Position numbers and translations under genes: made by a program
Part shown: positions 11,982-57,005 of the stretch, in pieces
How the letters are laid out: each line of letters begins with the position of its first letter
Position numbering within the stretch: position 1 is the stretch's first letter
The notes under the pieces: model-generated
Database searches by the model: none
The model's input: the letters and a program-made list of their open reading frames with translations, nothing else
Told to the model about the DNA's origin: nothing
Origin: a virus
Direction: 5' to 3' (one strand)
Virus record (IMG/VR): IMGVR_UViG_3300042147_000025
Span: 29,121 to 93,120 of that record
Length of the DNA: 64,000 bases

Positions 11982-12731
11982 TTAGATGAGCTGAGCATAT
12001 TGCCCACCCAATGATAAATCACTTAAATCTCCGTAGCCTTTGGCATTCAGAGCACCTTGAAAACCAAAATAGTCTTCAGCAATAAACTCACCAAAATTGA
12101 TTTTTACACCAATTGGCTTTGGAATAAATCTGGAGGGGTAGCCAGAAGAATAGGATGTATAAGTTAGAAGTACTTTCTCAAAAGAAGATAACTCTCTTCC
12201 TAACATCACAGTAACTTCAGCATTACCCTCCGCAACAACCAAGCTCATATCAATTCCAAATATGAATTGCATAAACTCTATGAATTGGTTTGGGGTTACA
12301 TTTGTATTATTCTTTACAATCTTAGCTTTAATGAACAATCGATATTGTTCATCTGTAAGCAGTGTATTCCCAGCTAGTGGATTGTTGATGTCATAATAAG
12401 GACCACCAATAGCTGGGTTATCCAAGTCACCGTAAGATTGAGCATCTGGATAACCAACAAAAGCAAAGAACGTCAACAGTGCTGTATCAATAAGCTCTCT
12501 TGGTTGGCCTACAATATCACCAATAATATCTAATTGAGCACCAACAGCAGTATCAATAGAACGCTCTTGCATCAGTTGACGGAAGACTTCTTGAAGCTCA
12601 ATCTTTCCGCCAAGGAGGATTTGGAGGTACTTGTCGAACGTAGGGGCAGATTCTTGGCGAAACTGTTCAGTCGTTCTGGAGCGTGCAACAGAAAGGTAAT
12701 CCTCAATATTGAACGGATTTAGTTCAGACAT
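11982..12731 (-). CDS. Baseplate protein, DUF2612 (P2 gpI-like)
   Basis: 249 residues. The segment with ERSIDTAVGAQLDIIGDIVGQPR matches DUF2612 proteins, which take the place of P2 gpI in the baseplate and connect wedge and fibres. Gene order (gpJ-like, this gene, tail fibre) agrees. The start overlaps the stop of the inserted nuclease gene at 12724-13617 by 8 bases. Confidence 0.8.
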   Translation of the reverse strand: MSELNPFNIEDYLSVARSRTTEQFRQESAPTFDKYLQILLGGKIELQEVFRQLMQERSIDTAVGAQLDIIGDIVGQPRELIDTALLTFFAFVGYPDAQSYGDLDNPAIGGPYYDINNPLAGNTLLTDEQYRLFIKAKIVKNNTNVTPNQFIEFMQFIFGIDMSLVVAEGNAEVTVMLGRELSSFEKVLLTYTSYSSGYPSRFIPKPIGVKINFGEFIAEDYFGFQGALNAKGYGDLSDLSLGGQYAQLI

Positions 12732-13617
12732 GAAAACTCCTAGGCATTAGATGGTCCATTTGCAGAACATCTTTAGTAAATAGTTCTGTATTACCCACCC
12801 GCAGGACATTAACTCCTTTGGCCCTATATTCTTTAAACATTTTGAGAATGTTTGTTTCAGCCGCCCGAGCATCTTTACCGTTTTCAAATCTATATGAATA
12901 GAGCACAGTAATCTTTTTTAAATCACAAGGTTTAAATCTAGAAGTAACACCGAGATTAGTGATACCCACTTTCCAATAAGTTGTACCATTGTCATCAACT
13001 CTTAGGTAGTACAAATAACCTGGAAGTTGTGAAACAAAACCCCCTTTCTTACAATTTGAGCACCCACTACCGTAGATAATACTTGCTCCAATTGGATAAA
13101 AAAGTTGATTACATACTAGACAAAGACATTCTATTGGTGTGCTGTTGTTTACGTAATTACCCACCACTTTCACATCATGCTGGAACTCATCAAAGCATTT
13201 CTGTAATTTTTCTACCGAACCCTTAGCTTTTCCGCTGCACATAAGGCAGCCTGAGTACTGGAGAAGATTGGCTGTGGAAGCTTCCCATTCATAATCACAA
13301 CACCGACAACGAGCTTTGATAGGCTCCTGACTTCCTTTGTAGTCAGAAACCAAATCAACGTTCCTATTATTATTGTCGAGGAGTTTTTGATAAGTTTCTT
13401 TTGTATATAAGTAAGTAGAGCAGCATGGACAACCCTTCCCACGTAGTAGGACGGAGGGCGTAGTAGGCCAACTATACTGACAGACGTTGCAAACAACATC
13501 TAAAAACCCTGTGCGTGTTTTATACACACCTGTGATCTTTAAGGTTGGTCTTTTTTCAGACATTAAATGAAAAAAATCGGATGCTATTTTTGCATTGTTT
13601 TCTTGTCTTTTACTCAT
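12724..13617 (-). CDS. Zinc-ribbon homing nuclease with GIY-YIG-like C-terminus
   Basis: 297 residues. It contains four repeated zinc-ribbon-like blocks (C-x-x-C ... W ... G.GCP.C), a layout common in phage homing enzymes. Around residues 203-230 comes a GYLYYL...YWKVGIT segment, which fits a divergent GIY-YIG or T5orf172-like nuclease core. It sits between the baseplate gpJ and gpI genes, overlapping the latter by 8 bases. The same architecture occurs at 19673-20695. DNA-binding plus nuclease is inferred from this combination. Confidence 0.7.
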   Translation of the reverse strand: MSKRQENNAKIASDFFHLMSEKRPTLKITGVYKTRTGFLDVVCNVCQYSWPTTPSVLLRGKGCPCCSTYLYTKETYQKLLDNNNRNVDLVSDYKGSQEPIKARCRCCDYEWEASTANLLQYSGCLMCSGKAKGSVEKLQKCFDEFQHDVKVVGNYVNNSTPIECLCLVCNQLFYPIGASIIYGSGCSNCKKGGFVSQLPGYLYYLRVDDNGTTYWKVGITNLGVTSRFKPCDLKKITVLYSYRFENGKDARAAETNILKMFKEYRAKGVNVLRVGNTELFTKDVLQMDHLMPRSFHV

Positions 13618-17771: not shown

Positions 17772-18531
17772 TCAGTAAGGCTCATAATCAAAAGAAATCA
17801 ACTTAGTGTAAGCCTTTTGACAGAGGTTATCTTTGTAGTGATCCGCCAGAGAGCGTACTTTATTATTAACGTGAAGTCTTACAGACTCAAAGGCATCAAA
17901 CTTATTACCATAAGAACCAAGGCTTATTGCTTTACCGCCAACCGATGAAGTAGCGATAAACCTACCAGCACGAAGTTCAACACCTTTTGGTAAATCAGGG
18001 TTTCCAGATATCTTTTTCGTGCGGAATATCACATTCAATTCTCTTGGGAGAAAGGTGAAAGGTGCATGTCTCTGGATTATAATTTTTGTTATTGTGGACA
18101 AGTAAGTCTTTATCTAACTGCCAATTTGGGAGGTTAAATCCCGGTTGTTTGTTACACCATTCTGCAAACACTTGAAAATTTAACCAAGAGTCTACTACTT
18201 GACAGTCAACATACGACTGCAACTGATTCTTAGTGTCGTAACAACGGGCCAGCATTGCAGACCAAGTGTTGTACTCCTTCGTAATATTCCCTGTTCTACC
18301 GGCTGAATAAATACCCACACCTATAAACCCCTTTCCAAAAACCTGTGGCGAATTGGGATTCTTTACTTTCCCAGCCTGAAGCATGTGTGAGTAGGTTTTA
18401 GTTATAGTTCCATCTTCAAATTTCACGAGTATGTCTTGGCTTCCGTTGTATTCAACAACAGCACAATCACCACTAAAGTTTGTCTTGAATACATCACCAA
18501 TAAATATTTTCTGTTTTGGACCTTTCATCAC
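17772..18531 (-). pseudogene. Frameshifted HNH/AP2 homing endonuclease gene
   Basis: Two overlapping frames (17995-18531 and 17772-18101) together encode one homing endonuclease. Frame one ends ...WQLDKD... then YNPETCTF; the other continues LPRELN...GKAISLGSYGNKFDAFESVR, an AP2-like tail. At 18050-18063 the 7-base unit GAAAGGT (plus strand) is present twice in tandem. Removing one copy restores PETCTFLPRELN, which matches PETCAFVPKRLN in the intact relative at 46161-46838. So the gene was inactivated by a 7-bp duplication. It lies between the hub and plug genes, with no start or stop of those affected. Confidence 0.85.
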
Positions 18532-18920: not shown

Positions 18921-19698
18921 TTTCCCTTGCCTTTCTTAGTGGGTCTGTGTCTTTAGGGGAATCACCAGTACCTACATCTTGTGGTGTACTATCTTGCTTA
19001 CCTTTAGAGGCTTTACTTGAAGCTTTCTTTTTAAGAGAGTCTTGTACATCTTTTGGGATAGTGGTCTTCTTTAAGAAAGCAAAAGTCACCTGTTCAAAAG
19101 TAATATCACAATACAAACCATATCCAGTGTTTGGGTCTTCCTTAAAAGTAATCTTAGTCATTACAAGATTGTTGATTACTTTACGAAGCAGTGTGCTGTC
19201 ATACTCAAACAAACGAACAAGTTGAATGCTGGGATCAAAGTTACCAGTCTTATCGTTGAAGACAACACCAGCAGTAAGATCAATCAGAGCTTGTCTAATT
19301 TGTTCTAGAAGGTCAGCACGTCTGCTATCAACCACTACTTCCGGAGTACTATCAGATAGGAACTGGCCGATACTGTCTGGAATAAACTTCTTCAGGACAC
19401 TTTGGTCTGTAGAGTTCACACTGACAGCATTAGGGGCTTGATTACTGTTGTATGGAGAGTTACCATCCAAGTCTTGGATTAGGTAAGTTCCAGTGGAAAT
19501 GTCTACACCCGTAATTACAGCACCAATTGTAAAGATTGGATTCGCAGAAATATAGTGGTCAGTCACCAGTCCACCGGACGCAATTGGATGTTTTGTAACT
19601 TGCCCAGAATAATTTTGTGTATAAGAAGTTACCGCCGAGAGGTAAATAAAACCCCCGTCTTGGACTGATGAATCACCCCACTCTATCGCTAATGACAT
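18913..19698 (-). CDS. Dit-like / baseplate adaptor protein
   Basis: 261 residues. The N-terminal half (GGFIYLSAVTSYTQNYSGQVTKHPI...) fits the Dit-like phage tail protein N-terminal domain found in contractile-tail hubs. The C-terminus is lysine- and serine-rich and probably disordered. It follows the tape-measure gene (apart from an inserted nuclease gene), as expected for the tail-tip adaptor. Confidence 0.7.
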   Translation of the reverse strand: MSLAIEWGDSSVQDGGFIYLSAVTSYTQNYSGQVTKHPIASGGLVTDHYISANPIFTIGAVITGVDISTGTYLIQDLDGNSPYNSNQAPNAVSVNSTDQSVLKKFIPDSIGQFLSDSTPEVVVDSRRADLLEQIRQALIDLTAGVVFNDKTGNFDPSIQLVRLFEYDSTLLRKVINNLVMTKITFKEDPNTGYGLYCDITFEQVTFAFLKKTTIPKDVQDSLKKKASSKASKGKQDSTPQDVGTGDSPKDTDPLRKARENG

Positions 19699-20695
19699 AC
19701 TCAGTCCCTTTCATTAGACTACCATTAAATTTTTCATAAATTTCAACAATATCTTCTATGTTGTGTGGATAAGTAGTTTCACTATAGCCATCAGGCAACA
19801 ACTGCCTATCCACTACTCCGCAAGTTAATGTATTAATACACTCACGTTCTGCTGCCTTACAATCTGAAATATTCGGAAATTTATAAACTTTGTGTAATAC
19901 AACATCTAACCCAGAAACCCTTTGCTGCTGGGAAACACGGATTAAAGAATTATTAGAAATTCCAAACTTAATGGCAATGATGTTATCGTTATCTTTGATT
20001 AAGTTGATGTAGGCTTCTGTTTGTCTTTGCTTTGCACAACCACAAGACCTATTCCCCTTCATCAGAGTAGCAGAACGAGCCTCTACATTCTGAAGACAGT
20101 CAGGGCAAAACACTTTCCAGTATGGTCTATGACCTTTAAAATCTTCTGTAGTACTTCTTGCAAAAGTAGTTCCTTCAGAAAAAGATCCCGTTGCAAAGAA
20201 GTCTCTGACAAACTCTTCATCAGGTTTAGATGCTCTCTTACCTACTGCCTCAAAGCGGCAACCGGGACAACCAACATTTCTATTTATGAAATTATTGATA
20301 ATTCCACTTGACCAAATACCATGAGTTTTGCACTCAAGTGATAATTTAGTTTTTCTGTCTGTGAATTCACCAGCCCAGCCATGAAATACATATCCGAGTT
20401 CACCTGCTTTTCTTTGACAAACTATCTTATAATATCTTTCATCTCTTCGGGCAGAAACTGAACATCCACACGGTACTTGCCCCAGTATCAAACTAGACTT
20501 GATTGACCTAAACAGTCCATCTCCATATAATTCTGGGTCTTTTTCACAAATACTACACTTTACAACGTACATTTTGGATGTAGCGCTTTTACCAGACCAG
20601 CCAATAACTTCAAGTTGGTTTTCCTTGCCAAATCTGGTGCCAACAAATTCGTCAGTTTCAATTTTATCAAAATCACTGTAGTACAATTTAAACAC
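19673..20695 (-). CDS. Zinc-ribbon homing nuclease with GIY-YIG-like C-terminus
   Basis: 340 residues with repeated cysteine pairs (CSICEKD, C-G-C, CPGC, CPDC, CGC) forming several zinc-ribbon-like blocks. From about residue 230 a segment IKFGISNN...R..QQ looks like a degenerate GIY-YIG/T5orf172 core. It has the same plan as the protein at 12724-13617. It is inserted between tape-measure and Dit-like genes, overlapping the latter by 26 bases. Confidence 0.68.
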   Translation of the reverse strand: MFKLYYSDFDKIETDEFVGTRFGKENQLEVIGWSGKSATSKMYVVKCSICEKDPELYGDGLFRSIKSSLILGQVPCGCSVSARRDERYYKIVCQRKAGELGYVFHGWAGEFTDRKTKLSLECKTHGIWSSGIINNFINRNVGCPGCRFEAVGKRASKPDEEFVRDFFATGSFSEGTTFARSTTEDFKGHRPYWKVFCPDCLQNVEARSATLMKGNRSCGCAKQRQTEAYINLIKDNDNIIAIKFGISNNSLIRVSQQQRVSGLDVVLHKVYKFPNISDCKAAERECINTLTCGVVDRQLLPDGYSETTYPHNIEDIVEIYEKFNGSLMKGTEYVISDRVG

Positions 20696-24278: not shown

Positions 24279-24809
24279 TTAAGGACTAACCTTCCACCGC
24301 TCATCAACAGTGCCACCAAGTGCTTCCATTGCAGCAACTTCTGATGGAGCAAGAGGTGTGTTACCACCAATAAAGATGTCACTACCAAACAGGTAGATGC
24401 CCCAATCACGAGTACCGAACTCAGAGCCAAAAGAGGCATTAGCTGGTGCTACAATTACTGCACTATTACTGGAGGCTACTGTTTGACCACTCATGTCCTT
24501 CATGGTGCAGTTGAACACATAACGGTTGTCCGGTACATTAGCATCAGCGATTTGAAGTTGTTGGAACAACGAGTTAGACGGCGAGCCTTGGTGTAGAGTG
24601 ATAGTTACGTTCATCGCAGTTACACGACGCTTAACCCTCGCAAAACTGTTGTCGCCAACACCCTGATAAGGCGTGGAACTTGGAGTAATCCGATCCATGC
24701 TGACAAACGTACCATCAGCAAAACCTGTTACTCGGTGTACGAAATCTCCTTTCGACAAAATGATAGTAAAATCATCCGGAAGGTAGTTCGCAATAAAATT
24801 GTCACTCAT
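24279..24809 (-). CDS. Tail tube-like protein, copy 1
   Basis: 176 residues; shares the FIANYLPDD start and GFADGTFVS block with the next gene and the same overall strand pattern. It is the first of the three tube-like genes after the sheath gene (an HNH gene separates them). A small hairpin (TAGGGG / CCCCTA, 24246-24273) lies between copies 1 and 2 and might adjust their relative expression. Confidence 0.7.
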   Translation of the reverse strand: MSDNFIANYLPDDFTIILSKGDFVHRVTGFADGTFVSMDRITPSSTPYQGVGDNSFARVKRRVTAMNVTITLHQGSPSNSLFQQLQIADANVPDNRYVFNCTMKDMSGQTVASSNSAVIVAPANASFGSEFGTRDWGIYLFGSDIFIGGNTPLAPSEVAAMEALGGTVDERWKVSP

Positions 24810-25507
24810 AAATTAATTGCCTCTGTATTAATGTGGGAATCTTCCCTAATTGTTTTATTTGGGCGATCCCCATAGACTTGTTCAGAAACATCGTCATATG
24901 CAAAAGCCGCTTCTAATTCTGTTTTAAAAGATTTTCTTAATTTACAAGTTCCGTCTACAAATAACTTTGCCCTGAAGTTACCGTGATGCATACTTACACC
25001 AATACTTTCACAAGCGCTGTCTTTTCGTTTTCGTCTGTTATGGCAATTAACAGATCTTGTCACCCAACTGCAGTTTTCTTTGGTGTAGTTACCGTTAGTA
25101 TCTTTTCGGTCTAGTTCCAAACCTTCTACATAGTGCTCTGACATATCATTGTAAAATGATTCAAAGTCAACCCAAGAAGGTTGGTAACTAATACCCCGAC
25201 CACCGTAGTCTTCAAACTTATAGGCTTTTGGGTTATCGCATCGGACCTTCATACCAGCCCAAACTCCATATAGTGGACTAGAGCTTAATCCATGAGTTAT
25301 GAACTGTGAACCGTCCTTTGCACACCCACATGTGATTACTTTACCAGAAACCAAGTCTACTAGATTTACAGGTTTAATAGGGGAACCACACTCACATTGA
25401 ACATTCACAAATCTACGACGCCTTTTAGAGACAGGCTTCATATAAGTTTCAGAAACAGTGACTAGAGACGAGAATTTGCTGCCAATTGGTAAATCTTTGT
25501 TTTTCAT
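24806..25507 (-). CDS. HNH-type homing endonuclease with AP2-like tail
   Basis: 233 residues from ATG 25507, which has GGGAGG 4 bases upstream. N-terminal zinc-ribbon block (CECGSP... CGCAKDG), then a nuclease core with GVWAGMKVRCDNP, YGGRGI, LELDRKDTNGNYTKENCSWVTRS (the ENCxW motif common in these enzymes), then an AP2-like C-terminus (SIGVSMHHGNFRAKL). It sits exactly between sheath and tube genes and overlaps the tube gene by 4 bases. Confidence 0.82.
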   Translation of the reverse strand: MKNKDLPIGSKFSSLVTVSETYMKPVSKRRRRFVNVQCECGSPIKPVNLVDLVSGKVITCGCAKDGSQFITHGLSSSPLYGVWAGMKVRCDNPKAYKFEDYGGRGISYQPSWVDFESFYNDMSEHYVEGLELDRKDTNGNYTKENCSWVTRSVNCHNRRKRKDSACESIGVSMHHGNFRAKLFVDGTCKLRKSFKTELEAAFAYDDVSEQVYGDRPNKTIREDSHINTEAINL

Positions 25508-25565
25508 AGAACCTCCCAAATAAAATGATTTTTATCATATCACTCAAAAGGTTCTATGTAAAGCT

Positions 25566-27838: not shown

Positions 27839-28320
27839 TAATCACTACCTCTGTTAGCTACTTTAAAATCAACGGAGTCATACAAAAGACCACTGTCAAT
27901 AAGTGGGTTATCAAACCCTTTAAGCTCAACAGTAAGTGGGGCATTTCGTGGAGTATCCCAGTCAGCAACAGCCTTCTTTAAGTCAGCCTGAGCTTTAGCA
28001 CCAATCTTTGTATACTCTTGTTTGAACGTACTTTTCCCCTCAGCAATCCTTTGCATACTCTCGGAAAATAGATTGTCGTATGATCCCTTTTTAATTGGGG
28101 CCATAAAACCAACACGAATAGCTGGGCGAGTGGGGATATTTTGAGCTGGTACACCTTCCTCCTGCCAGCTCCAGACGGTCGCAACAGATAAATTATCGTT
28201 ATCTGGTCCGTAGTAAATTGGCTCTACAATTCCGACCTGAACTTCTAATTGACTACCTCTAAGAAGATCCCTCTTCATTTTGTTCCAGCCAGATTTATCA
28301 ATAGTGAGCTTAAAAGACAT
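27838..28320 (-). CDS. Neck / tail completion protein candidate
   Basis: 160 residues. The pattern VQVGIVEPIYYG... VATVWSWQEEG... IPTRPAIRVGF followed by a helical segment and PLIDSGLLYDSVDFKV is typical of HK97 gp10-like or virion-morphogenesis neck proteins (the IPxRPF-like and LxxTGxL-like blocks). It overlaps an inserted LAGLIDADG gene by 11 bases. Confidence 0.65.
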   Translation of the reverse strand: MSFKLTIDKSGWNKMKRDLLRGSQLEVQVGIVEPIYYGPDNDNLSVATVWSWQEEGVPAQNIPTRPAIRVGFMAPIKKGSYDNLFSESMQRIAEGKSTFKQEYTKIGAKAQADLKKAVADWDTPRNAPLTVELKGFDNPLIDSGLLYDSVDFKVANRGSD

Positions 28321-29119
28321 GCTTCACCTCTGGATACTTTTCAATTAACTTTTCTGCATTCTCTGATTTTCTGTTTAAAAAGAGAGTAGAGTTTGAGTAT
28401 AGTTCATTTAAAATAGTAGCCGCTTTGATTCCAGTGATTGACAGTCTATAAAGCTCACCCTTCATAAGGACAGTCCGTGTATCAATTGACGGGTTGATAG
28501 ATTGACAGTAACTTAGGAACTGATCGCACAACTCCTTGCTTCCACAAAGGTAAACTCTACGGTTCTTATTTTCGGGCTTTGATATACTACCATCACCGTC
28601 AATTAAACCTCTCCAGAAATGTCTGTTATTCAAGAATCTTTCTGGTGCAAATTCTTTGGTGCTTTTTCTGGTTGTATACCCTAGATTGATAAAGCTCTTG
28701 TAAATCCCATCAACAGTAAAAGATAGTTGGCAAGATTTATTTAAGGTACTTGTCCTGATCTGATATGCCACTGGATTTGGCAAATTAATTTCATTCTTCA
28801 TTGTTTCAAGAATGTGAGAATCGTCTGATTGAATATCAATGGTAAGTCGTTTACCGCGACCGGTCATACATCCATCAGCCAACATAAGCCCATAAAAATA
28901 AGCTGCTCCTTCTGTGTCCTTCTCAAAGTAATCAACCACAACGTGCCTGTTGGCTACTCTGTTACTACCATTCTCAATTTTAACACCCTGTTGCTTAAAT
29001 ATCTTTGCAACACAAGCATCTGAAACATTGAAGGTTTTAGCAATTTCTCGTAGGGTAAGCTTCTGTTCTACGTACATAGTAATCAAGGCTGGGTATTGAT
29101 CTTTTCTGATTTTGATCAT
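28310..29119 (-). CDS. LAGLIDADG homing endonuclease
   Basis: 269 residues from ATG 29119 (AAGGA site close upstream; the frame is open to 29236 but without a better start). A helix-turn-helix (TLREIAKTFNVSDACVAKIF) near residues 18-38 is followed by two LAGLIDADG helices, YGLMLADGC and FWRGLIDGDGS, each with the catalytic acidic residue. It is inserted between two neck genes. Two motifs in one chain mean a monomeric enzyme. Confidence 0.9.
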   Translation of the reverse strand: MIKIRKDQYPALITMYVEQKLTLREIAKTFNVSDACVAKIFKQQGVKIENGSNRVANRHVVVDYFEKDTEGAAYFYGLMLADGCMTGRGKRLTIDIQSDDSHILETMKNEINLPNPVAYQIRTSTLNKSCQLSFTVDGIYKSFINLGYTTRKSTKEFAPERFLNNRHFWRGLIDGDGSISKPENKNRRVYLCGSKELCDQFLSYCQSINPSIDTRTVLMKGELYRLSITGIKAATILNELYSNSTLFLNRKSENAEKLIEKYPEVKHVF

Positions 29120-29132
29120 ATTTTCCTTCAGA

Positions 29133-29579
29133 TTAAAATGTGCAGTTAATAAACAAAGTTTCACCAGCAGCATGACAACTATCACATCCACAACCTGTCT
29201 CACAACAAGCTGCTTCTCTACAGATATCCCCATCACAAACTTCGATGTTCATGAGCTTGCTTGGACAACTGTTAGCAGACCAAGGCATCAACCCCATAGG
29301 AATGAGTACTGTAGGATTATTAATGAAGTTACCAAGCGCCGCGATGTAGTTCTTAGCATAGTCGTTCCAAACTTCTAGGTCGCCTGTGGATTCTCTGGTA
29401 TTATATCCAGCAATAGTAAACGAGGCAGAAATTGCAGCCATTCGAGCGGCTTGATACACATTTTGATTATTCAAGTCTAAGAATTGCTGAATTTCCTCCT
29501 CACTGTAGATGGGGTAGAACGGATTATTCGGGGTGTTGCCTATGAGCAAATTTACCTGCTCAACGGGTGTAAGGGCCAT
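29133..29579 (-). CDS. Head-tail adaptor-like protein with cysteine-rich tail
   Basis: 148 residues from ATG 29579 (GGAG site 5 bases upstream). The helical N-terminal part (LTPVEQVNLLIG... YSEEEIQQFLDLN... AARMAAISASF) resembles head-tail adaptors that bind the portal. The last 45 residues hold nine cysteines (for example ACCETGCGCDSC), which is unusual for this family and suggests metal binding or cross-linking. Confidence 0.6.
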   Translation of the reverse strand: MALTPVEQVNLLIGNTPNNPFYPIYSEEEIQQFLDLNNQNVYQAARMAAISASFTIAGYNTRESTGDLEVWNDYAKNYIAALGNFINNPTVLIPMGLMPWSANSCPSKLMNIEVCDGDICREAACCETGCGCDSCHAAGETLFINCTF

Positions 29580-33668: not shown

Positions 33669-34664
33669 CGTTTTGTTCAAGTGGATTCGTTAATTCCACC
33701 CGGTTCTTTTATGAACTCCTACATGTTTCCATGCAGACCAGACTATATCACACTCTTCAGCTTGACCTGTTTAGAGCCTTACCATTTCGAACCACTTGGT
33801 TCTACTCCCTTACGGGATAGTCGTTGAACGTTCTAATCAAGTATCGTAATTATTAAAAGTTATACAGATCCGATATGTGTCTGTACTGCTTTTTGTTTTT
33901 GATTTTAGTTACCATGCTTTTATTAATTTTAGCATTGGTACTTAAAGCTACAATCTCCATATTCCTAACTCCAGCTTCTATCTGCTTGCATATCCAGTGG
34001 ATAGTTTCTTCAGATATTACAATAGATTTTCTAGGAATACTGTATTGCTGTGAAATAGACAACCAACCAATACCACGCCGAATGTTCTCAAGAGATACTT
34101 TTGATACCTCTAACATCTCATGAATTTCAATGTTTCTGTACCCGTTCTCCATCATCTGGCAAATCTCGTGAACTTGCAGATTGGTTAACAGTGCATTGTG
34201 AACATCTTCACCTTGTTCTGGAATTTTCAAACCAGTTCTAAGTGCGTGTTGAGTATTTTCTGAGTAGGTGTTCCACTCAAGGTTGCTTAAATCATTATGT
34301 GCTTTATTTCCATCAATATGGTTGACGCATGGTTTGTTTTCGGGGTTATCAAGAAAAGCTAGAGCGACAAGTCTATGGACTGTAAAACTCTTAGCTTTAT
34401 TATCTTCCCAAAGGAAAACTATTTCATAGCCGTCTCTATTAATAAAAGTGGCTTTTTCTTTTCCTTGTTTGTTGTAAACTTTACCAGTTGCATCAACAAA
34501 ATAATTTCTTACGATTTCTTTCTTCATAGTATTTCTCCTACTGACTTCGGATGAGATACTTGATTAGCTTCGCTGCTGATTGTCTTCACCTTTACGTGGT
34601 CAGAGTTCCCAGCAATTAAATAAGTTTTCGACAAGTATTTCTACTTGAAGCCGCTAGTTAGTCA
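33669..34664 (-). ncRNA. Group I intron in the portal gene
   Basis: Conserved core elements are visible on the minus strand: P (AATTGCTGGGAAC, 34605-34617), Q (AATCAGCAGC, 34572-34581), R (GTTCAACGACTATCC, 33815-33829) and S (GATATAGTC, 33741-33749). GACTA in R pairs with TAGTC in S to form P7. At the 5' splice site the exon end GCCGT pairs with intron GCGGC (34650-34654), giving P1 with the required U-G pair after 34665. The 3' splice site is after a G, at 33669 or 33678. The HNH gene lies between Q and R, in the P6 loop. Confidence 0.9.
33853..34527 (-). CDS. Intron-encoded HNH homing endonuclease
   Basis: 224 residues starting at ATG 34527 (GGAG site upstream). N-terminal NUMOD4-like part (VYNKQGKEKATFINRDGYE), then an HNH_3 core with HRLVALAFLDNPENKPCVNHIDGNKAHNDLSNLEW (shortened here), then helix-turn-helix segments (NLQVHEICQMMENGYRN and a second related block) that probably read DNA. 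It lies wholly inside the portal intron and would cut intronless portal genes. Confidence 0.9.
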   Translation of the reverse strand: MKKEIVRNYFVDATGKVYNKQGKEKATFINRDGYEIVFLWEDNKAKSFTVHRLVALAFLDNPENKPCVNHIDGNKAHNDLSNLEWNTYSENTQHALRTGLKIPEQGEDVHNALLTNLQVHEICQMMENGYRNIEIHEMLEVSKVSLENIRRGIGWLSISQQYSIPRKSIVISEETIHWICKQIEAGVRNMEIVALSTNAKINKSMVTKIKNKKQYRHISDLYNF

Positions 34665-45766: not shown

Positions 45767-46161
45767 AACAGATTTTTAACGAACTAAAATTTACTGGGCT
45801 CGGTCGTTGCAAAGGTTTTGTGCGGGATCTGCCATCAGTCAAGATTGGTAAGTGGGACAACACACGAATTTATTACTTCCGAGACGAACACCATGAACAA
45901 GTAAACGGTTTTGATTTTATTGTTCTTGAATTCATGTCTTGCACGGGTAGCTGTGAGAATTGGTGGGATGATCCAAACTCTGAACTGGAGGTTGAGGTTG
46001 TTATGACAGGAGAAGCCTGCTTTGATGGCATTCGTCACATCACAAGTGGAGATGTAGATAATAAAGGTTATAGCTACTACCCGGATAGCGCAAACATGAT
46101 TGAGATTTGGACAGAGTTGCGTAAATTGGAGACTCAGTTTTGTATGGAAGGGGAGTTTTGA
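45763..46161 (+). CDS. Hypothetical protein (132 aa)
   Basis: 132 residues, acidic, with CTGSCENWWDDP in the middle and isolated cysteines. Overlaps both neighbours by 1-4 bases. I do not recognise the family. Confidence 0.6.
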   Translation: MKQIFNELKFTGLGRCKGFVRDLPSVKIGKWDNTRIYYFRDEHHEQVNGFDFIVLEFMSCTGSCENWWDDPNSELEVEVVMTGEACFDGIRHITSGDVDNKGYSYYPDSANMIEIWTELRKLETQFCMEGEF

Positions 46162-46838
46162 TGGGTAATTATAAAGATGCGCTGGTCTTAGGTGTAGCTA
46201 AGAATGATATCAAAGGTAGTACGAGGATTATGGTTGAAGGTAAATCAGTACCTTGTCCATATTATATGAGATGGCTTAATCTAGTAAGAAGAGAGCATTC
46301 GAAGGGATTTCAAACTAGGAGCCCGACGTACAGTGCGGCAACTGTTCACAAGGAGTGGTTGCTATATTCAACCTTTAAAGTTTGGATGGAGCCTCAAATT
46401 TGGGAAGGACTTGAATTAGACAAGGATATCCTTGTTCCGGGCAATAAACATTATAGTCCTGAAACTTGTGCGTTTGTGCCAAAAAGACTGAATAAAGTGT
46501 TGTCAACAAATCGTGGGAAAGCAAGGAGTCACTCTATTGGTGTTTCTTACATTAAGAAGCGATCTACCATGGTAAATGAATACAACAAGCCATATAATGC
46601 AAGCGTATGGGTATTCGACGGAGATAGAAATTATCAAGCATCGCTGGGCAGCTTTTTAGACGAGGTATCTGCACACAGAGCTTGGCAGTGGGCTAAAGCT
46701 AACGAGATTGAGAAAGCTGTTGCTTGGTATGCCACACAAGATTGCTTTCGAACAGATGTAGCAGATGCATTAACTAAAAGAGTGTGGGATTTAAGAACGG
46801 ACCACTCAAATAACATTGAAACCAAAATTATTTTGTGA
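46161..46838 (+). CDS. HNH/AP2-type homing endonuclease
   Basis: 225 residues from ATG 46161, overlapping the upstream stop (TGATG), with GGGAG upstream. The core (YYMRWLNLVRRE..., VHKEWLLYSTFKVWME, LELDKDILVPGNKHYSPETCAF) is that of phage HNH-like enzymes with the PETC block; the C-terminal part (SIGVSYIKK..., SLGSFLDEVSAHRAWQWAK) is AP2-like. It is the intact counterpart of the broken gene at 17772-18531. Confidence 0.8.
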   Translation: MGNYKDALVLGVAKNDIKGSTRIMVEGKSVPCPYYMRWLNLVRREHSKGFQTRSPTYSAATVHKEWLLYSTFKVWMEPQIWEGLELDKDILVPGNKHYSPETCAFVPKRLNKVLSTNRGKARSHSIGVSYIKKRSTMVNEYNKPYNASVWVFDGDRNYQASLGSFLDEVSAHRAWQWAKANEIEKAVAWYATQDCFRTDVADALTKRVWDLRTDHSNNIETKIIL

Positions 46839-48105: not shown

Positions 48106-48891
48106 ATGGGAAGTCACGCTAAACACTTTATCGAAATTATTGACGGTATCGAAGTCGAGCAACCAAGGAAGAAAACACGACGGACCCGTCAGGGTGGGAA
48201 ACCAGAAGCTGTTGCAGCTAAGTTTAAGGAAGAAAAAGAAATTCGCGTGAAGCCAATCACAGCTAAAACAGAAAATCAGAAGTTGTACCTTGACAGTCTG
48301 CAAAGCAATGCAATCACGGTCGGGAGAGGCAGTGCAGGTTCGGGAAAATCGTGGTGTGCGGCTAGTGTTGCAGCGAATAAGTACCTTAAAGGTGAAATTG
48401 ATCAGATCGTAGTAATGCGACCACTAGTTGGTATGGGTAAATCTTCAGGATTTTGGCCCGGCGACATTCGCGCCAAGTTGGAACCGTACCTTTTGCCGAT
48501 CTTGAATACAATTAAAGACACAATTGGTGCTGCAAAGTATGAAGCTGACTTTGGTAAGAGTATTTTGATTCAGCCAATGGAAGCGGTACGCGGTATGAAC
48601 TTCGATTCTCGGGTTTATGTAATCGTGGACGAAAGCCAGAACTGCACTCCAGATGAGATTCGCAGCCTAGTTACTCGGATGGCTTCAGGTAGCCAAGCAG
48701 CCTATTGCGGTGATGATAAGCAGCGGGATATTCCGGGTCTTTCTGGCATTCAATATCTTTGTGATTTGATTAAGAAACATAAGATTCCTAATTGTGGAGT
48801 TGTTGAATTTACACCAGCAGATATTGTGAGGAGTGGACTGACACGAATCTTTGTAGAAATTTTTGAGGAAGAAGGGCCATCGCCCCGTTAG
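48106..48891 (+). CDS. phoH: PhoH-like ATPase
   Basis: 261 residues. Walker A GSAGSGKS at about 75-82, the PhoH block VVMRPLVGMGKSSGFWPGD, Walker B VIVDESQN at about 173-180, and a GDDKQRDIPG segment (sensor). The first 50 residues are a basic extension. PhoH-like ATPases resemble the N-terminal half of RecD/UvrD-type helicases and are phosphate-starvation inducible in E. coli; in phages they are common but their exact role is uncertain. A 100-base gap with no gene lies upstream. Confidence 0.9.
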   Translation: MGSHAKHFIEIIDGIEVEQPRKKTRRTRQGGKPEAVAAKFKEEKEIRVKPITAKTENQKLYLDSLQSNAITVGRGSAGSGKSWCAASVAANKYLKGEIDQIVVMRPLVGMGKSSGFWPGDIRAKLEPYLLPILNTIKDTIGAAKYEADFGKSILIQPMEAVRGMNFDSRVYVIVDESQNCTPDEIRSLVTRMASGSQAAYCGDDKQRDIPGLSGIQYLCDLIKKHKIPNCGVVEFTPADIVRSGLTRIFVEIFEEEGPSPR

Positions 48892-48899
48892 GAGTTTAA

Positions 48900-49916
48900 A
48901 TGAAAGAGGATATAAAGGATATCACTGGGCAGCGGTTTGGAAGTCTAGTTGCAGTGGAACTAACCGACAAAAGAAGTTCTAGTAGAGCTGTAGTGTGGAA
49001 GTGCCAATGTGATTGTGGTAATGTTGTTGACGTTAATAGCAGCAGCTTGAGGCAGGGGCACACTAAATCGTGTGGTTGTTTTTCTTTTCGACCACGGAAA
49101 TATCAACCAGAGGAGGGAGTCACTTATGGTTATCTTACGTATGTCAATGAAGCACCTAGAATTGTAAGGCCCTCTAAAACTGTAAAAGCTGGTAATTTTA
49201 CATGTATTTGCGGAAAAGAAGTTGTTAAATCTTTCCAAGAAGTATGTAGTGGAAATATTACCTCTTGTGGTTGTATGAAGGGAAAGGCAAATATTAAAGA
49301 CATTACAGGAGAGAAGTTCAACCGACTTACTGCACTTAAGAGTACAGGAGTAATCAAGAACGGAGGTTATATTTGGACTTGTCAGTGTGATTGTGGGACA
49401 ATAAAAGATATACCAATCTCTGCACTAAACTCTGGACAAGTAAAGTCATGTGGCTGTGCTAAAATCACACACGGTATGACAAAAACACCAGCGTGGCGAT
49501 CTTGGGATAGTATGGTGACAAGAATCAAGGACGAAAAATGTAAGGAGTGGTATTGGGATGTCACTATTGATGCTAGGTGGCTTGAACCGGATGGGCAGGG
49601 TTTCATGAACTTTTATGAGGACATGGGTGAGCCTCCAGAAGGACATACGCTGAACAGAGTTCACGGAGCTAAGATTTACTCCAAAGAAACTTGTGAGTGG
49701 GCAACATTAAGCATGCAATCTTTTGATCAGAAACGCAGTAAAATGAATACTTCCGGTAGGACAGGAGTATATTTTAGTGAGAGTGGCTCCAAATGGGTTG
49801 CTCAGATTAAAAAGAACGGTATTGTAACTCAGGTCTACAGAGGTACGTCATTTGAAGAAGCATGTGCAGCGCGAACAGCAGCAGAAATTGAATATTATGG
49901 ATTCTCAAAGGAGTAA
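48900..49916 (+). CDS. Homing endonuclease with three zinc-ribbon modules and AP2-like tail
   Basis: 338 residues. Three repeats of the pattern F..L......W.C.CDCG......L..G...SCGC (about residues 8-60, 75-125, 130-180) precede a nuclease core (TPAWRSWDSMVTRIKD..., FMNFYEDMGEPPEGHTLNRV, ETCEWAT) and an AP2-like C-terminus (SGRTGVYFSESGSKWVAQIKK). It is inserted between phoH and the ClpP-like gene with 8 bases upstream and 4 downstream. Confidence 0.8.
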   Translation: MKEDIKDITGQRFGSLVAVELTDKRSSSRAVVWKCQCDCGNVVDVNSSSLRQGHTKSCGCFSFRPRKYQPEEGVTYGYLTYVNEAPRIVRPSKTVKAGNFTCICGKEVVKSFQEVCSGNITSCGCMKGKANIKDITGEKFNRLTALKSTGVIKNGGYIWTCQCDCGTIKDIPISALNSGQVKSCGCAKITHGMTKTPAWRSWDSMVTRIKDEKCKEWYWDVTIDARWLEPDGQGFMNFYEDMGEPPEGHTLNRVHGAKIYSKETCEWATLSMQSFDQKRSKMNTSGRTGVYFSESGSKWVAQIKKNGIVTQVYRGTSFEEACAARTAAEIEYYGFSKE

Positions 49917-49920
49917 GTAT

Positions 49921-50679
49921 ATGAGTGAAGATAAGTTTGTACCTATGATGGTTGAGCAGTGTGAAGTTTTTCAATCTAGTTACACTAACAATGTCTTTGA
50001 TATCATTCTTGATGACTATATTCGTGAACCTTCATACTACCGACAAGCTTTCCATGTGTTGCGAACGGCTCAGAAAGGGGATCGCGTAAATTTGATCATA
50101 AATAATGGCGGGGGATCTGTGAATTCCGCTATTATGTTTATAAATTTGATCGAAGAAACAGAAGCTGAGGTTCTGGCTGTCTTGGAGGGTGAGACTCATT
50201 CTGCTGCATCGATGATCGCACTTTCGGCTCACGGTGTACATGTCAAGCCTTTTGCATCTATGATGATTCATAACGCCACGTTTGGAACATTTAATACGGT
50301 GCAGAACGTTATCGATCATGTAAACTTTACAAGTACACAGACAGAAAAACTTATCCGCAAAGTCTATAAATCATTCCTCACGGAGCCGGAAATCGAGGAA
50401 GTAATCCGTAATCGTGAGATTTGGCTTACCGGAGAAGAGATTGGTGAACGGTTGGACGTTATGTTTGAAGCTCGTAAGTCCGAAGGGTGTGGCGACCCTA
50501 GCTGTACATCGTGCGGTCCTCAAGGTGATGACTTTGAAGACTTTGATCTTGAAGCCCTAATTGCTGAAAAAGTAGCTGAAGGGATTGAACAACACGAGAA
50601 AAATAAGGCAGCTAAAGAGAAAGCAGCCACTGCAAAATCAGCTAAAGCTTCAAAGAAAATTGTAGAAAAGGTCGAATAA
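49921..50679 (+). CDS. ClpP-like serine protease
   Basis: 252 residues from ATG 49921 (the frame runs upstream into the homing gene but the AAGGAG site is just before this ATG). ClpP fold motifs: INNGGGSVNSA, THSAASMIAL with catalytic Ser at about 97, and MIHNA with His at about 117; a candidate Asp is near 179. After the protease domain come CGDPSCTSCG (zinc-like knuckle) and a Lys/Ala/Glu-rich coiled tail that ClpP lacks. It is separate from the capsid S49 protease. Role may be processing or interference with host proteolysis. Confidence 0.82.
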   Translation: MSEDKFVPMMVEQCEVFQSSYTNNVFDIILDDYIREPSYYRQAFHVLRTAQKGDRVNLIINNGGGSVNSAIMFINLIEETEAEVLAVLEGETHSAASMIALSAHGVHVKPFASMMIHNATFGTFNTVQNVIDHVNFTSTQTEKLIRKVYKSFLTEPEIEEVIRNREIWLTGEEIGERLDVMFEARKSEGCGDPSCTSCGPQGDDFEDFDLEALIAEKVAEGIEQHEKNKAAKEKAATAKSAKASKKIVEKVE

Positions 50680-52809: not shown

Positions 52810-52818
52810 AGATTTATA

Positions 52819-52853
52819 GAGGGCTTGGGCATTGTGCTTGAGCCCTCTTTTTG
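52819..52853 (+). terminator. Strong rho-independent terminator
   Basis: GAGGGCT (52819-52825) pairs with AGCCCTC (52841-52847), with further inner pairing, followed by TTTTTG. A TATAAT (52856-52861) right after it may be the -10 of a promoter for the next gene, with TTGTGC 18 bases upstream. Confidence 0.8.
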
Positions 52854-52888: not shown

Positions 52889-53419
52889 ATGAACAATTTA
52901 ACAAGTAAAGCTCGTATATTCTCCATAGCCGCGCACGAAGCTGTTCAACAAAAGAGAAAATACACTGGAGAGTCTTACTACCACCATCCAGCAGAGGTTG
53001 CAATGACTGTCTATGCTGCATATGGTACGGATAATATGATTGCAGCGGCATACCTACACGACGTACAGGAAGATTGCAACATTACAAACGAATTGATTGA
53101 GAAGGAGTTTGGAAAAGAAGTCGCTGAACTTGTTGGCTGGCTTTCAGATGTCTCTAAACCAGAAGATGGTAATCGTGCCAAACGTAAAGAGATTGATCGT
53201 ATGCACACAGCGCAGTCTTCACCACAAGCCAAAACAATCAAACTTGCAGACCTTATCTCAAACAGCAAGTCAATTCTTGAACATGACAAAGATTTCGCAA
53301 AGGTTTATATCAAAGAGAAAGAGTTGTTGCTTGAAGTGCTGACTGAAGGTGATGGTACGTTGTATGCACAGGCTAAAGATATTGTAGAGAAGGCTAAGAA
53401 GGAGCTTGGGATTGAATAA
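52889..53419 (+). CDS. HD-domain protein, MESH1/SpoT-hydrolase-like
   Basis: 176 residues. Pattern: AAHEAVQQKRKYTGESYYHHP near the start (His33 region), LHDVQED at 56-62 (HD plus ED) and IKLADLISN around 117-125 (Asp121). This is the order found in (p)ppGpp hydrolases (SpoT HD, MESH1, small alarmone hydrolases). No synthetase domain is present. It would remove the 3' pyrophosphate of ppGpp, or act on a related nucleotide. AGGAGG site upstream and own promoter candidate. Confidence 0.78.
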   Translation: MNNLTSKARIFSIAAHEAVQQKRKYTGESYYHHPAEVAMTVYAAYGTDNMIAAAYLHDVQEDCNITNELIEKEFGKEVAELVGWLSDVSKPEDGNRAKRKEIDRMHTAQSSPQAKTIKLADLISNSKSILEHDKDFAKVYIKEKELLLEVLTEGDGTLYAQAKDIVEKAKKELGIE

Positions 53420-54530: not shown

Positions 54531-54893
54531 ATGATCAAGAAAGGAAATCCAGACTTCAAACCGATGTCTGACGCTCAACGCGAAGAAATACGACTTAAAC
54601 GAATTGCAGACCAAGAATACGCACGAGAACACTTGCAACTAGACCGTCCAGACGAAGCATATTGGAAGTCTGAAGCATCTGCCCGAGGAATCCGTATGCC
54701 TCAATGGCACATTCTTGGGAATGAAGTAAAATACATTAAAAGAGCTTGCAAGAAACTTGGCGTTGATGTAAAAGAATACACAGAATCAACAGGCTTTAAA
54801 ACACTCAGGGAATTTGCTGAAACTAACCATAAATTTAATGCTGTAGCCATGGTTGGCTTGGTTATCGAATACGCCGTAGACAAAGGACTCTGA
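54531..54893 (+). CDS. Hypothetical protein (120 aa)
   Basis: Basic and helical, GGAG site upstream. No recognised family. Last gene before a regulatory gap. Confidence 0.55.
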   Translation: MIKKGNPDFKPMSDAQREEIRLKRIADQEYAREHLQLDRPDEAYWKSEASARGIRMPQWHILGNEVKYIKRACKKLGVDVKEYTESTGFKTLREFAETNHKFNAVAMVGLVIEYAVDKGL

Positions 54894-55677: not shown

Positions 55678-55839
55678 ATGAGTTTATTTGAAGACTGGTA
55701 TCTCACTTATTTCCAAGACTTTATTGATCTTGAGGAAGATCTTATAAAAAATGAAGATGGGGAGTATCTAGACGTGCGGGTGGATTTAATGCACAAAGCC
55801 TTTCTTGCTGGGCAAGTGTTGTGTGAGGAATTTAAATGA
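55678..55839 (+). CDS. Hypothetical protein (53 aa)
   Basis: ATG 55678 behind AAGGAG. Acidic and helical. Stop overlaps the next start. Confidence 0.55.
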   Translation: MSLFEDWYLTYFQDFIDLEEDLIKNEDGEYLDVRVDLMHKAFLAGQVLCEEFK

Positions 55840-56018
55840 CCAGAGAATATTCCCATGACAGAGAAGTGATTAAGGACTTCATCCGCTTCTTGTCAGATCA
55901 GCATAAAGCTTGTGTAATTCAGTTTCCTGATGAGTTTGCAGCTAATAGTTATGTTAACTATCGTTTTATTAACGTTTCAGAAATATTGGAAGAATTTATT
56001 GAGTGGAGAAAGCAGTGA
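55836..56018 (+). CDS. Hypothetical protein (60 aa)
   Basis: ATGA overlap upstream and GTGA overlap with phaZ downstream, so it is translated with the depolymerase gene. No domain recognised. Confidence 0.6.
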   Translation: MTREYSHDREVIKDFIRFLSDQHKACVIQFPDEFAANSYVNYRFINVSEILEEFIEWRKQ

Positions 56019-56848
56019 GCATTCAAATGCAAAACCAGACAATCATGTTAGGGAATCAGTACATATACGTTTCTATTAAGCCGGGGAAGGTTGGGACTGT
56101 TCCTCTGTTGATCATGAATGGCATTGGAGCGAATACAACTTTACTGACTCCTTTTGTCGAAGCTATGCACGAGTCGAATCCTGATATTGAGATTATTACT
56201 TTCGATGTACCGGGAGTTGGTGGTAGTTCTACACCTTCTCTTCCGTACAGGTTTAGTGGCTTGGCTAAGACCGTTGGACAAATGCTTGATTGTCTCAACT
56301 ACGCACAAGTAGATGTACTTGGCCTAAGCTGGGGTGGATTTTTGGCGTGCCAGTTCGCATATGATTACCCACAAAGATGTAAGAAACTAATCCTATGTGC
56401 TACAGCAACAGGCGTAACATCCGTTCCACCTAGTTTTAAGGTGTTGTCGCTGATGGCTTCACCTAGACGCTACTCTGACTCAGCTTATATGATTGAAGTT
56501 GCACCTCTGATCTACGGTGGAAAGTTTAGAACTGATCCTGAGCTAGCAGTTAAATATGCACAGAAGATGGAAGCTAATAGGTCTGAGAATAAAGCTAATG
56601 CCGCTGGATACAAGTTTCAACAGTTAGCTATTTGTTGGTGGAGCAGCTTGTGGATGCTTCCTTACATTAAACAGCCTACACTTTTGCTCGGTGGTAGTGA
56701 TGATCCAATCATTCCATTGTTGAATATGAAGATTATGAAAGGGTTGATTCCTAATTCTAAACTTCATGTAGTGGATGACGGACATCTTTTCCTTCTTTGT
56801 TCAACTGATGTAGTAACACCTATTATTAATGAGTTTTTGGGGAACTAG
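56015..56848 (+). CDS. phaZ: PhaZ-like intracellular polyhydroxyalkanoate depolymerase
   Basis: 277 residues from GTG 56015 (GGAG 6 bases upstream). An alpha/beta hydrolase that follows the Pseudomonas intracellular mcl-PHA depolymerase nearly block for block: PLLIMNGIGAN, FDVPGVGGSSTP, LGLSWGGFLACQFAYDYPQR with nucleophile Ser105, LMASPRRY, the SDDPIIPL block with catalytic Asp (229 or 230) and DDGHLF with His257. Length agrees with that family (about 283). The enzyme would hydrolyse storage-granule polyester to hydroxyalkanoate monomers in the cytoplasm. Family placement is from recall; a search should confirm PhaZ over a generic hydrolase. Confidence 0.85.
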   Translation: MSIQMQNQTIMLGNQYIYVSIKPGKVGTVPLLIMNGIGANTTLLTPFVEAMHESNPDIEIITFDVPGVGGSSTPSLPYRFSGLAKTVGQMLDCLNYAQVDVLGLSWGGFLACQFAYDYPQRCKKLILCATATGVTSVPPSFKVLSLMASPRRYSDSAYMIEVAPLIYGGKFRTDPELAVKYAQKMEANRSENKANAAGYKFQQLAICWWSSLWMLPYIKQPTLLLGGSDDPIIPLLNMKIMKGLIPNSKLHVVDDGHLFLLCSTDVVTPIINEFLGN

Positions 56849-56849
56849 A

Positions 56850-57005
56850 ATGACAGCAAAACAACCGACACCAATGCCTGAAGGGATCAACAGACCAAAG
56901 GCTCCTGCTGCACCTCCTAAGCCAAATAACCTTACACTAGAGCAAGCATTTGATATCATGTTTGAGAGGTACAAGGATGCTCTTGAGGAGTTGAGTGAAA
57001 AATGA
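56850..57005 (+). CDS. Proline-rich small protein (51 aa)
   Basis: ATG 56850 one base after the phaZ stop, GGGGAA site. N-terminal half Pro/Ala/Lys-rich, C-terminal half helical. ATGA overlap with the next gene. A short partner of phaZ is possible but not shown. Confidence 0.5.
   Translation: MTAKQPTPMPEGINRPKAPAAPPKPNNLTLEQAFDIMFERYKDALEELSEK

Follow-up and report, generated by a model that had tools for sequence, protein, structure and literature searches.

A PhaZ-family gene held in a fixed slot by a phage lineage suggests viral raiding of host polyhydroxyalkanoate stores

The stretch of DNA analysed here (64,000 nucleotides, hereafter the window) belongs to a myovirus-type viral record of 93,120 bases (G000). 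Besides phage genes for terminase, capsid, sheath and baseplate, the window contains a gene resembling phaZ, which encodes the intracellular depolymerase of polyhydroxyalkanoate (PHA). Read from the sequence, the phaZ-like frame runs uninterrupted from a GTG at 56015 to a TAG at 56848. An alternative in-frame GTG at 56003 would give a product four residues longer (the 281-aa form); the start at 56015 is favoured because a GGAG stands at 56005-56008 and because the GTG overlaps the stop of the upstream gene in a GTGA. The features of the locus are as follows.

54531 to 54893, + strand: 120-aa gene, anchor of the variable slot that holds phaZ, found in 19 of 19 related phage records compared
55836 to 56018, + strand: 60-aa gene, function unassigned, sharing four bases (GTGA) with phaZ
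56005 to 56008, + strand: GGAG, ribosome-binding-like site 6 nt 5' of the GTG at 56015, read from the sequence
56015 to 56848, + strand: phaZ-like gene for a lidded alpha/beta hydrolase of 277 aa, TIGR02240 family
56327 to 56329, + strand: codon of the nucleophile Ser105, within GLSWGG, aligned with Ser102 of P. putida PhaZ
56579 to 56596, + strand: phage-specific six-residue insertion (residues 189-194) at the lid hinge, from the alignment, in 11 of 11 phage copies
56702 to 56704, + strand: codon of the triad residue Asp230, aligned with Asp221 of P. putida PhaZ
56783 to 56785, + strand: codon of the triad residue His257, aligned with His248 of P. putida PhaZ
56850 to 57005, + strand: 51-aa open reading frame, starting one base past the phaZ stop, read from the sequence

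The 51-aa frame is in turn coupled to the next one by an ATGA overlap at 57002. The original prediction, which placed a full-length relative of Pseudomonas PhaZ with an intact Ser-Asp-His triad between short coupled genes, is confirmed as an observation: the coupling is visible on both sides, in the GTGA overlap upstream and in the frame at 56850 downstream, and the likeness and the triad are borne out by the comparisons below.

In a search of NCBIfam profiles the window protein matched TIGR02240, poly(3-hydroxyalkanoate) depolymerase, with 329.1 bits (2.1e-98). This is a curated NCBI model of equivalog level with a cut-off of 250.6 bits, and the match spans residues 12-279 of the 281-aa form, that is, nearly the whole length of the protein. 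The next-best family, PcaD, reached 84 bits against a cut-off of 256. Two phage copies were scored against the TIGR02240 model, the window protein and a divergent copy (L221), and the latter also exceeded the cut-off, with 308.0 bits. Pfam returned general alpha/beta-hydrolase families, Abhydrolase_1 being the best, and the sole match in PHROGs was phrog_789, esterase/lipase (103 bits), a broad hydrolase family of the same fold which, unlike the TIGR02240 match, carries no PHA specificity. The best cellular homologues are Pseudomonas phaZ products, at 53-56% identity in a scan of genomes and at 58% at most when more were sampled (54-58% to Pseudomonas PhaZ along the full length). The number of genomes with a score above the TIGR02240 cut-off was 2 out of 274 for the sampled Gammaproteobacteria, 17 out of 245 for the Pseudomonas order, one out of 150 for the order of a Burkholderiaceae genome and zero out of 14 for the control genomes; the rarity among the sampled Gammaproteobacteria and the controls implies that the window match is not a chance one.

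The numbering of P. putida PhaZ maps cleanly onto the window protein in the alignment. The catalytic triad of the P. putida enzyme consists of Ser102, Asp221 and His248 (PMC12504323); these residues align with Ser105, Asp230 and His257 here, and the triad is kept in all eleven phage copies, which also retain 55 of the 84 residues that are invariant across the cellular set. PhaZ enzymes carry a GxSxG lipase box in which the serine is preceded by a hydrophobic residue, valine in almost all of them (PMC2666664). In the phage box, GLSWGG, that position is held by leucine (isoleucine in one copy), which is hydrophobic but not valine. The NGIG loop is preserved in the window protein (MNGIG for the FNGIG of residues 34-38), including Asn35, reported to be essential in P. 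putida PhaZ (PMC12504323), but the three most divergent of the eleven phage copies have threonine instead.

The most distinctive part of the phage protein is its lid hinge. Directly after the residues aligned to Ser184-Ser185, all eleven phage copies carry the six-residue insertion, which is found in none of the aligned cellular homologues, and the YYWQLF motif that follows (residues 190-195 in P. putida PhaZ) reads YKFQQL in the window protein. This common insertion does not figure in the original prediction. In the P. putida enzyme, the S184F substitution lowers mcl-PHA depolymerase activity about 16-fold while esterase activity rises, and deletion of either FNGIG or YYWQLF abolishes activity (PMC12504323). 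When the lid domain is taken as P. putida PhaZ residues 133-192, the window protein is identical to it at 30 of 60 positions, as against 113 of 198 in the core; the same lid count for two cellular homologues whose genes adjoin phaC, the PHA synthase gene (L270 and L039), is 32 of 60 each. The resemblance to the mcl-PHA depolymerase of P. putida KT2440 thus comprises the full-length match, the triad, the GxSWGG box, the NGIG loop and the same kind of lid, whereas the differences are the hinge insertion, YKFQQL in place of YYWQLF and leucine in place of valine. A further difference concerns the bacterial locus and not the enzyme: the Pseudomonas gene lies beside a class II phaC, and the phage gene does not. 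Because the lid hinge differs from that of Pseudomonas PhaZ in every phage copy, specificity for mcl-PHA is something that we only infer.

An AlphaFold2 model predicts a lidded alpha/beta hydrolase (pLDDT 88, pTM 0.90), with weaker confidence in parts of the lid and a pLDDT of 64 at the insertion. In a structure search many lidded hydrolases matched, a Bacillus PhaZ ranking 26th with a TM of 0.77, and we rejected the idea of a PhaZ-specific structural match, the fold being too common to discriminate.

In P. putida (L021), phaZ is flanked on either side by a class II PHA synthase gene (1070 and 1080 against a cut-off of 855), and the phaD position after them is taken by a TetR-type regulator gene. 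In a tree that included general hydrolases, the phage proteins form a single clade (99/100) within the PhaZ group, which a long branch separates from the other hydrolases; when more cellular sequences were sampled, the phage clade, now at 100/100, had Pseudomonas PhaZ and the L270 group as its neighbours, while homologues from Burkholderiaceae, Hyphomonadaceae and others fall outside (95/93). The phage clade (support 99-100) is thus nested in PhaZ and not among non-PHA esterases, and since phaC-linked cellular homologues (L270 and L039) flank the phage branch from either side, PhaZ function is bracketed. A general alpha/beta hydrolase, PcaD-like or an esterase, was ruled out by the gap in profile scores together with this tree, and judging by profile, alignment and phylogeny we regard the assignment to the PhaZ family as strong. 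As to the origin of the gene, an attempt to place the donor in a named Pseudomonas lineage was given up: the phage proteins branch off, with a long stem, close to the root of the PhaZ group of Pseudomonadales, and a clade of Pseudomonas PhaZ apart from them withstood one test (p-AU 0.41). The long stem would mean that the acquisition is old, or that change was fast afterwards. It may be added that a group of large genomes (~6-7 Mb) of the Pseudomonas order (L270-L274 and L280-L284) has two TIGR02240-type genes; in L270, the only genome of that group that was inspected, the first of the two adjoins a PHA synthase gene.

The gene is not confined to one virus. It was found on ten further IMG/VR phage contigs, at ~61-92% identity to the window copy. 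These carriers share 40-91 reciprocal best hits with G000 (mean identity 50-66%), and their terminases are 34 to 98% identical to that of G000. The slot of phaZ is constant in all carriers, a few genes past the 120-aa gene (54531-54893), and an orthologue of the 60-aa gene lies immediately or closely upstream of phaZ in six of the ten other carriers. Non-carriers have other short genes in this region, and one of them (G289) has the 60-aa gene without phaZ. When contigs of at least 80 kb were recovered with an unrelated baseplate (tail) gene as the query, a recovery unbiased towards phaZ, 8 of 15 proved to carry it, single absences being uncertain because records can be fragments. No phage copy contains an internal stop. 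The dN/dS of the window copy against the other phage copies is 0.08-0.17, the ratios for distant pairs being rough since dS is near saturation, and the third-position GC content of phaZ (GC3 0.383) is close to the mean of this phage's genes (0.367, sd 0.05). We conclude that phaZ is accessory to a phage lineage, in which it occupies a fixed slot, and, judging by the substitution ratios, that it is under purifying selection. The earlier suggestion that it serves as an auxiliary gene is supported, as it fits a distribution that is patchy but tied to one slot, together with purifying selection and a phage-like composition. It should also be mentioned that these ~90 kb phages (the window phage, G001-G011 and G289-G303) are strongly mosaic, with genes ranging from <35% to 100% identity within a genome pair; in one carrier the terminase is 34% identical, yet PhaZ is 90% identical.

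Other genes in the window were inspected as well. Profile searches of the 11 carriers found no PHA synthase (PhaC_N) and no phasin of family PF05597 (one of two phasin families, the other being PF09361), and the idea of a larger phage PHA cassette was rejected on these absences. On the same strand, 2.6 kb upstream of phaZ, a gene at 52889-53419 (+) encodes a small HD hydrolase resembling SpoT and MESH1 (PF13328, 1e-15), with the motif HDVQED and with RelA and MESH1 as the nearest solved structures; its product is likely a (p)ppGpp hydrolase, and 218 phage records contain genes like it. A module of phaZ and this alarmone hydrolase was considered and dismissed: the SpoT/MESH1-like gene is present in 5 of 11 carriers and in 3 of the 8 non-carriers compared, that is, without association. 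Directly before the run of genes that includes phaZ there is a strong terminator-like hairpin at 52818-52848 (+), consisting of 14 pairs and then TTTTGTTT. Endonuclease- or zinc-finger-like frames (12724-13617, 17995-18531, 19673-20695, 24806-25519, 28310-29236, 33853-34527, 46140-46838 and 48900-49916) are scattered between structural and early genes, and for several of them the relatives contain weak paralogues; they resemble homing endonucleases, and two genes of phage vB_PsaM_M1 that align to window frames are annotated as endonucleases. A PhoH-like gene and a ClpP-like protease gene (48106-48891 and 49852-50679, +) are neighbours also in that phage.

By their terminase, capsid and baseplate genes, the closest cultured relatives are Pseudomonas phages. 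One of them, vB_PsaM_M1, isolated on Pseudomonas sp. ZM01 and placed by GenBank in Ounavirinae, is largely collinear with the window phage, sharing 45 reciprocal best hits at a mean of 41% identity and a baseplate protein at 65%. Unlike the window phage, it and the phiPMW-like phages have no PhaZ-level match. A PHA-storing Pseudomonas host had been predicted; the closest cultured relatives are consistent with it, and it is from these relatives and from the tree that we infer a Pseudomonas-like host as likely.

That PHA depolymerase is not known as an established phage function, as the original prediction had noted, agrees with what we found. Among 50,697 phage records there was no PhaZ-level match, the best being generic hydrolases at 24-36%, and openly licensed literature, preprints excluded, yielded no report of a phage phaZ, earlier reports elsewhere being possible. 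Phages of PHA-producing mixed cultures have been described that carry phaC, phbB, fadJ, fadD, acs, ackA and acdAB (PMC12013262). Like phaZ, these genes are phage-borne and act on PHA metabolism; however, they belong to the synthesis side and were called from annotation, whereas phaZ represents the breakdown step and is accompanied by evidence from a tree, a slot and selection. The main text of that work mentions neither phaZ nor any depolymerase. We thus regard phaZ as an auxiliary metabolic gene whose function, PHA breakdown, is new to the searched literature.

What might such a gene do for the phage? PhaZ-family chemistry, the conversion of the polyester into (R)-3-hydroxy fatty acids, is established. 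We consider it likely that the window gene is kept as an accessory metabolic gene and that its product belongs, as an intracellular PHA depolymerase, to the mcl-PHA family of Pseudomonas PhaZ. In this scenario, the phage enzyme would bind host PHA granules in the infected cell, and its Ser-Asp-His triad would hydrolyse the polyester. Enzymes of the host would convert the released (R)-3-hydroxy fatty acids to CoA thioesters and pass them to beta-oxidation. In cells with little external carbon, the resulting acetyl-CoA and reducing power might then sustain the replication of the phage, whose own contribution would be the depolymerising step only. Both the activity on mcl-PHA and the benefit to the phage are put forward here conditionally, and feeding replication would be one among several possible benefits.

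One alternative is that the protein descends from PhaZ but that its lid has since been reshaped to suit a different ester, be it a small acyl ester, a hydroxyacyl oligomer, an acyl-homoserine lactone or a membrane lipid, the same triad no longer acting on the polymer. The phage-only hinge insertion, the altered YYWQLF, the loss of Asn35 in a subclade and a lid less conserved than the core would fit such a change, as would the finding that single hinge changes move PhaZ from polymer to small esters (PMC12504323). The window lid, however, is about as P. putida-like as those of the phaC-linked cellular homologues, both scored phage copies lie above the PHA-depolymerase cut-off, and the window protein retains triad and NGIG loop, so that we think this remodelling improbable, if worth keeping in mind.

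It is also conceivable that the depolymerase works as such and that its benefit is not carbon but what the removal of granules brings, namely freed cell space, the release of DNA-binding granule proteins from the granule surface or a store denied to competitors. The surroundings of phaZ showed no further gene of fatty-acid or PHA metabolism, and the phaC and phasin searches were negative, so any use of the carbon would rest wholly on the host; but the downstream enzymes are already present there and none need be carried, and nothing speaks positively for a non-carbon benefit, to which we accord little credence. Patchy presence (the eight of 15 long contigs recovered through the tail gene) might even suggest a neutral passenger from the host, or bacterial DNA misassembled into a viral contig. 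Against this stand eleven contigs from several metagenome datasets with one slot and a phage-only clade (99-100%), which rule out bacterial contamination, as well as the low dN/dS, the phage-like composition and the phage genes on either side; this last explanation is largely refuted and hardly credible.

On balance, we judge it probable, if a shade less so than the reading as an accessory mcl-PHA depolymerase, that the phage lineage possesses a PHA depolymerase of its own, dedicated to this task and marked by a phage-specific lid hinge, which mobilises host polyester granules in infection; such an auxiliary gene for PHA breakdown is undescribed in the searched literature. Environmental bacteria hold much of their carbon reserve as PHA, and a bioplastics industry is built on it. 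If the proposed role is correct, virus infection would be linked to stored carbon, which would help to explain replication in starved cells, and a phage that opens the PHA reserve would be relevant to PHA fermentations. The phage copies also constitute a natural set of lid-hinge variants for the discrimination between polymer and small esters by PhaZ. Taken together, our results suggest that the virus may raid the PHA stores of its host during infection.
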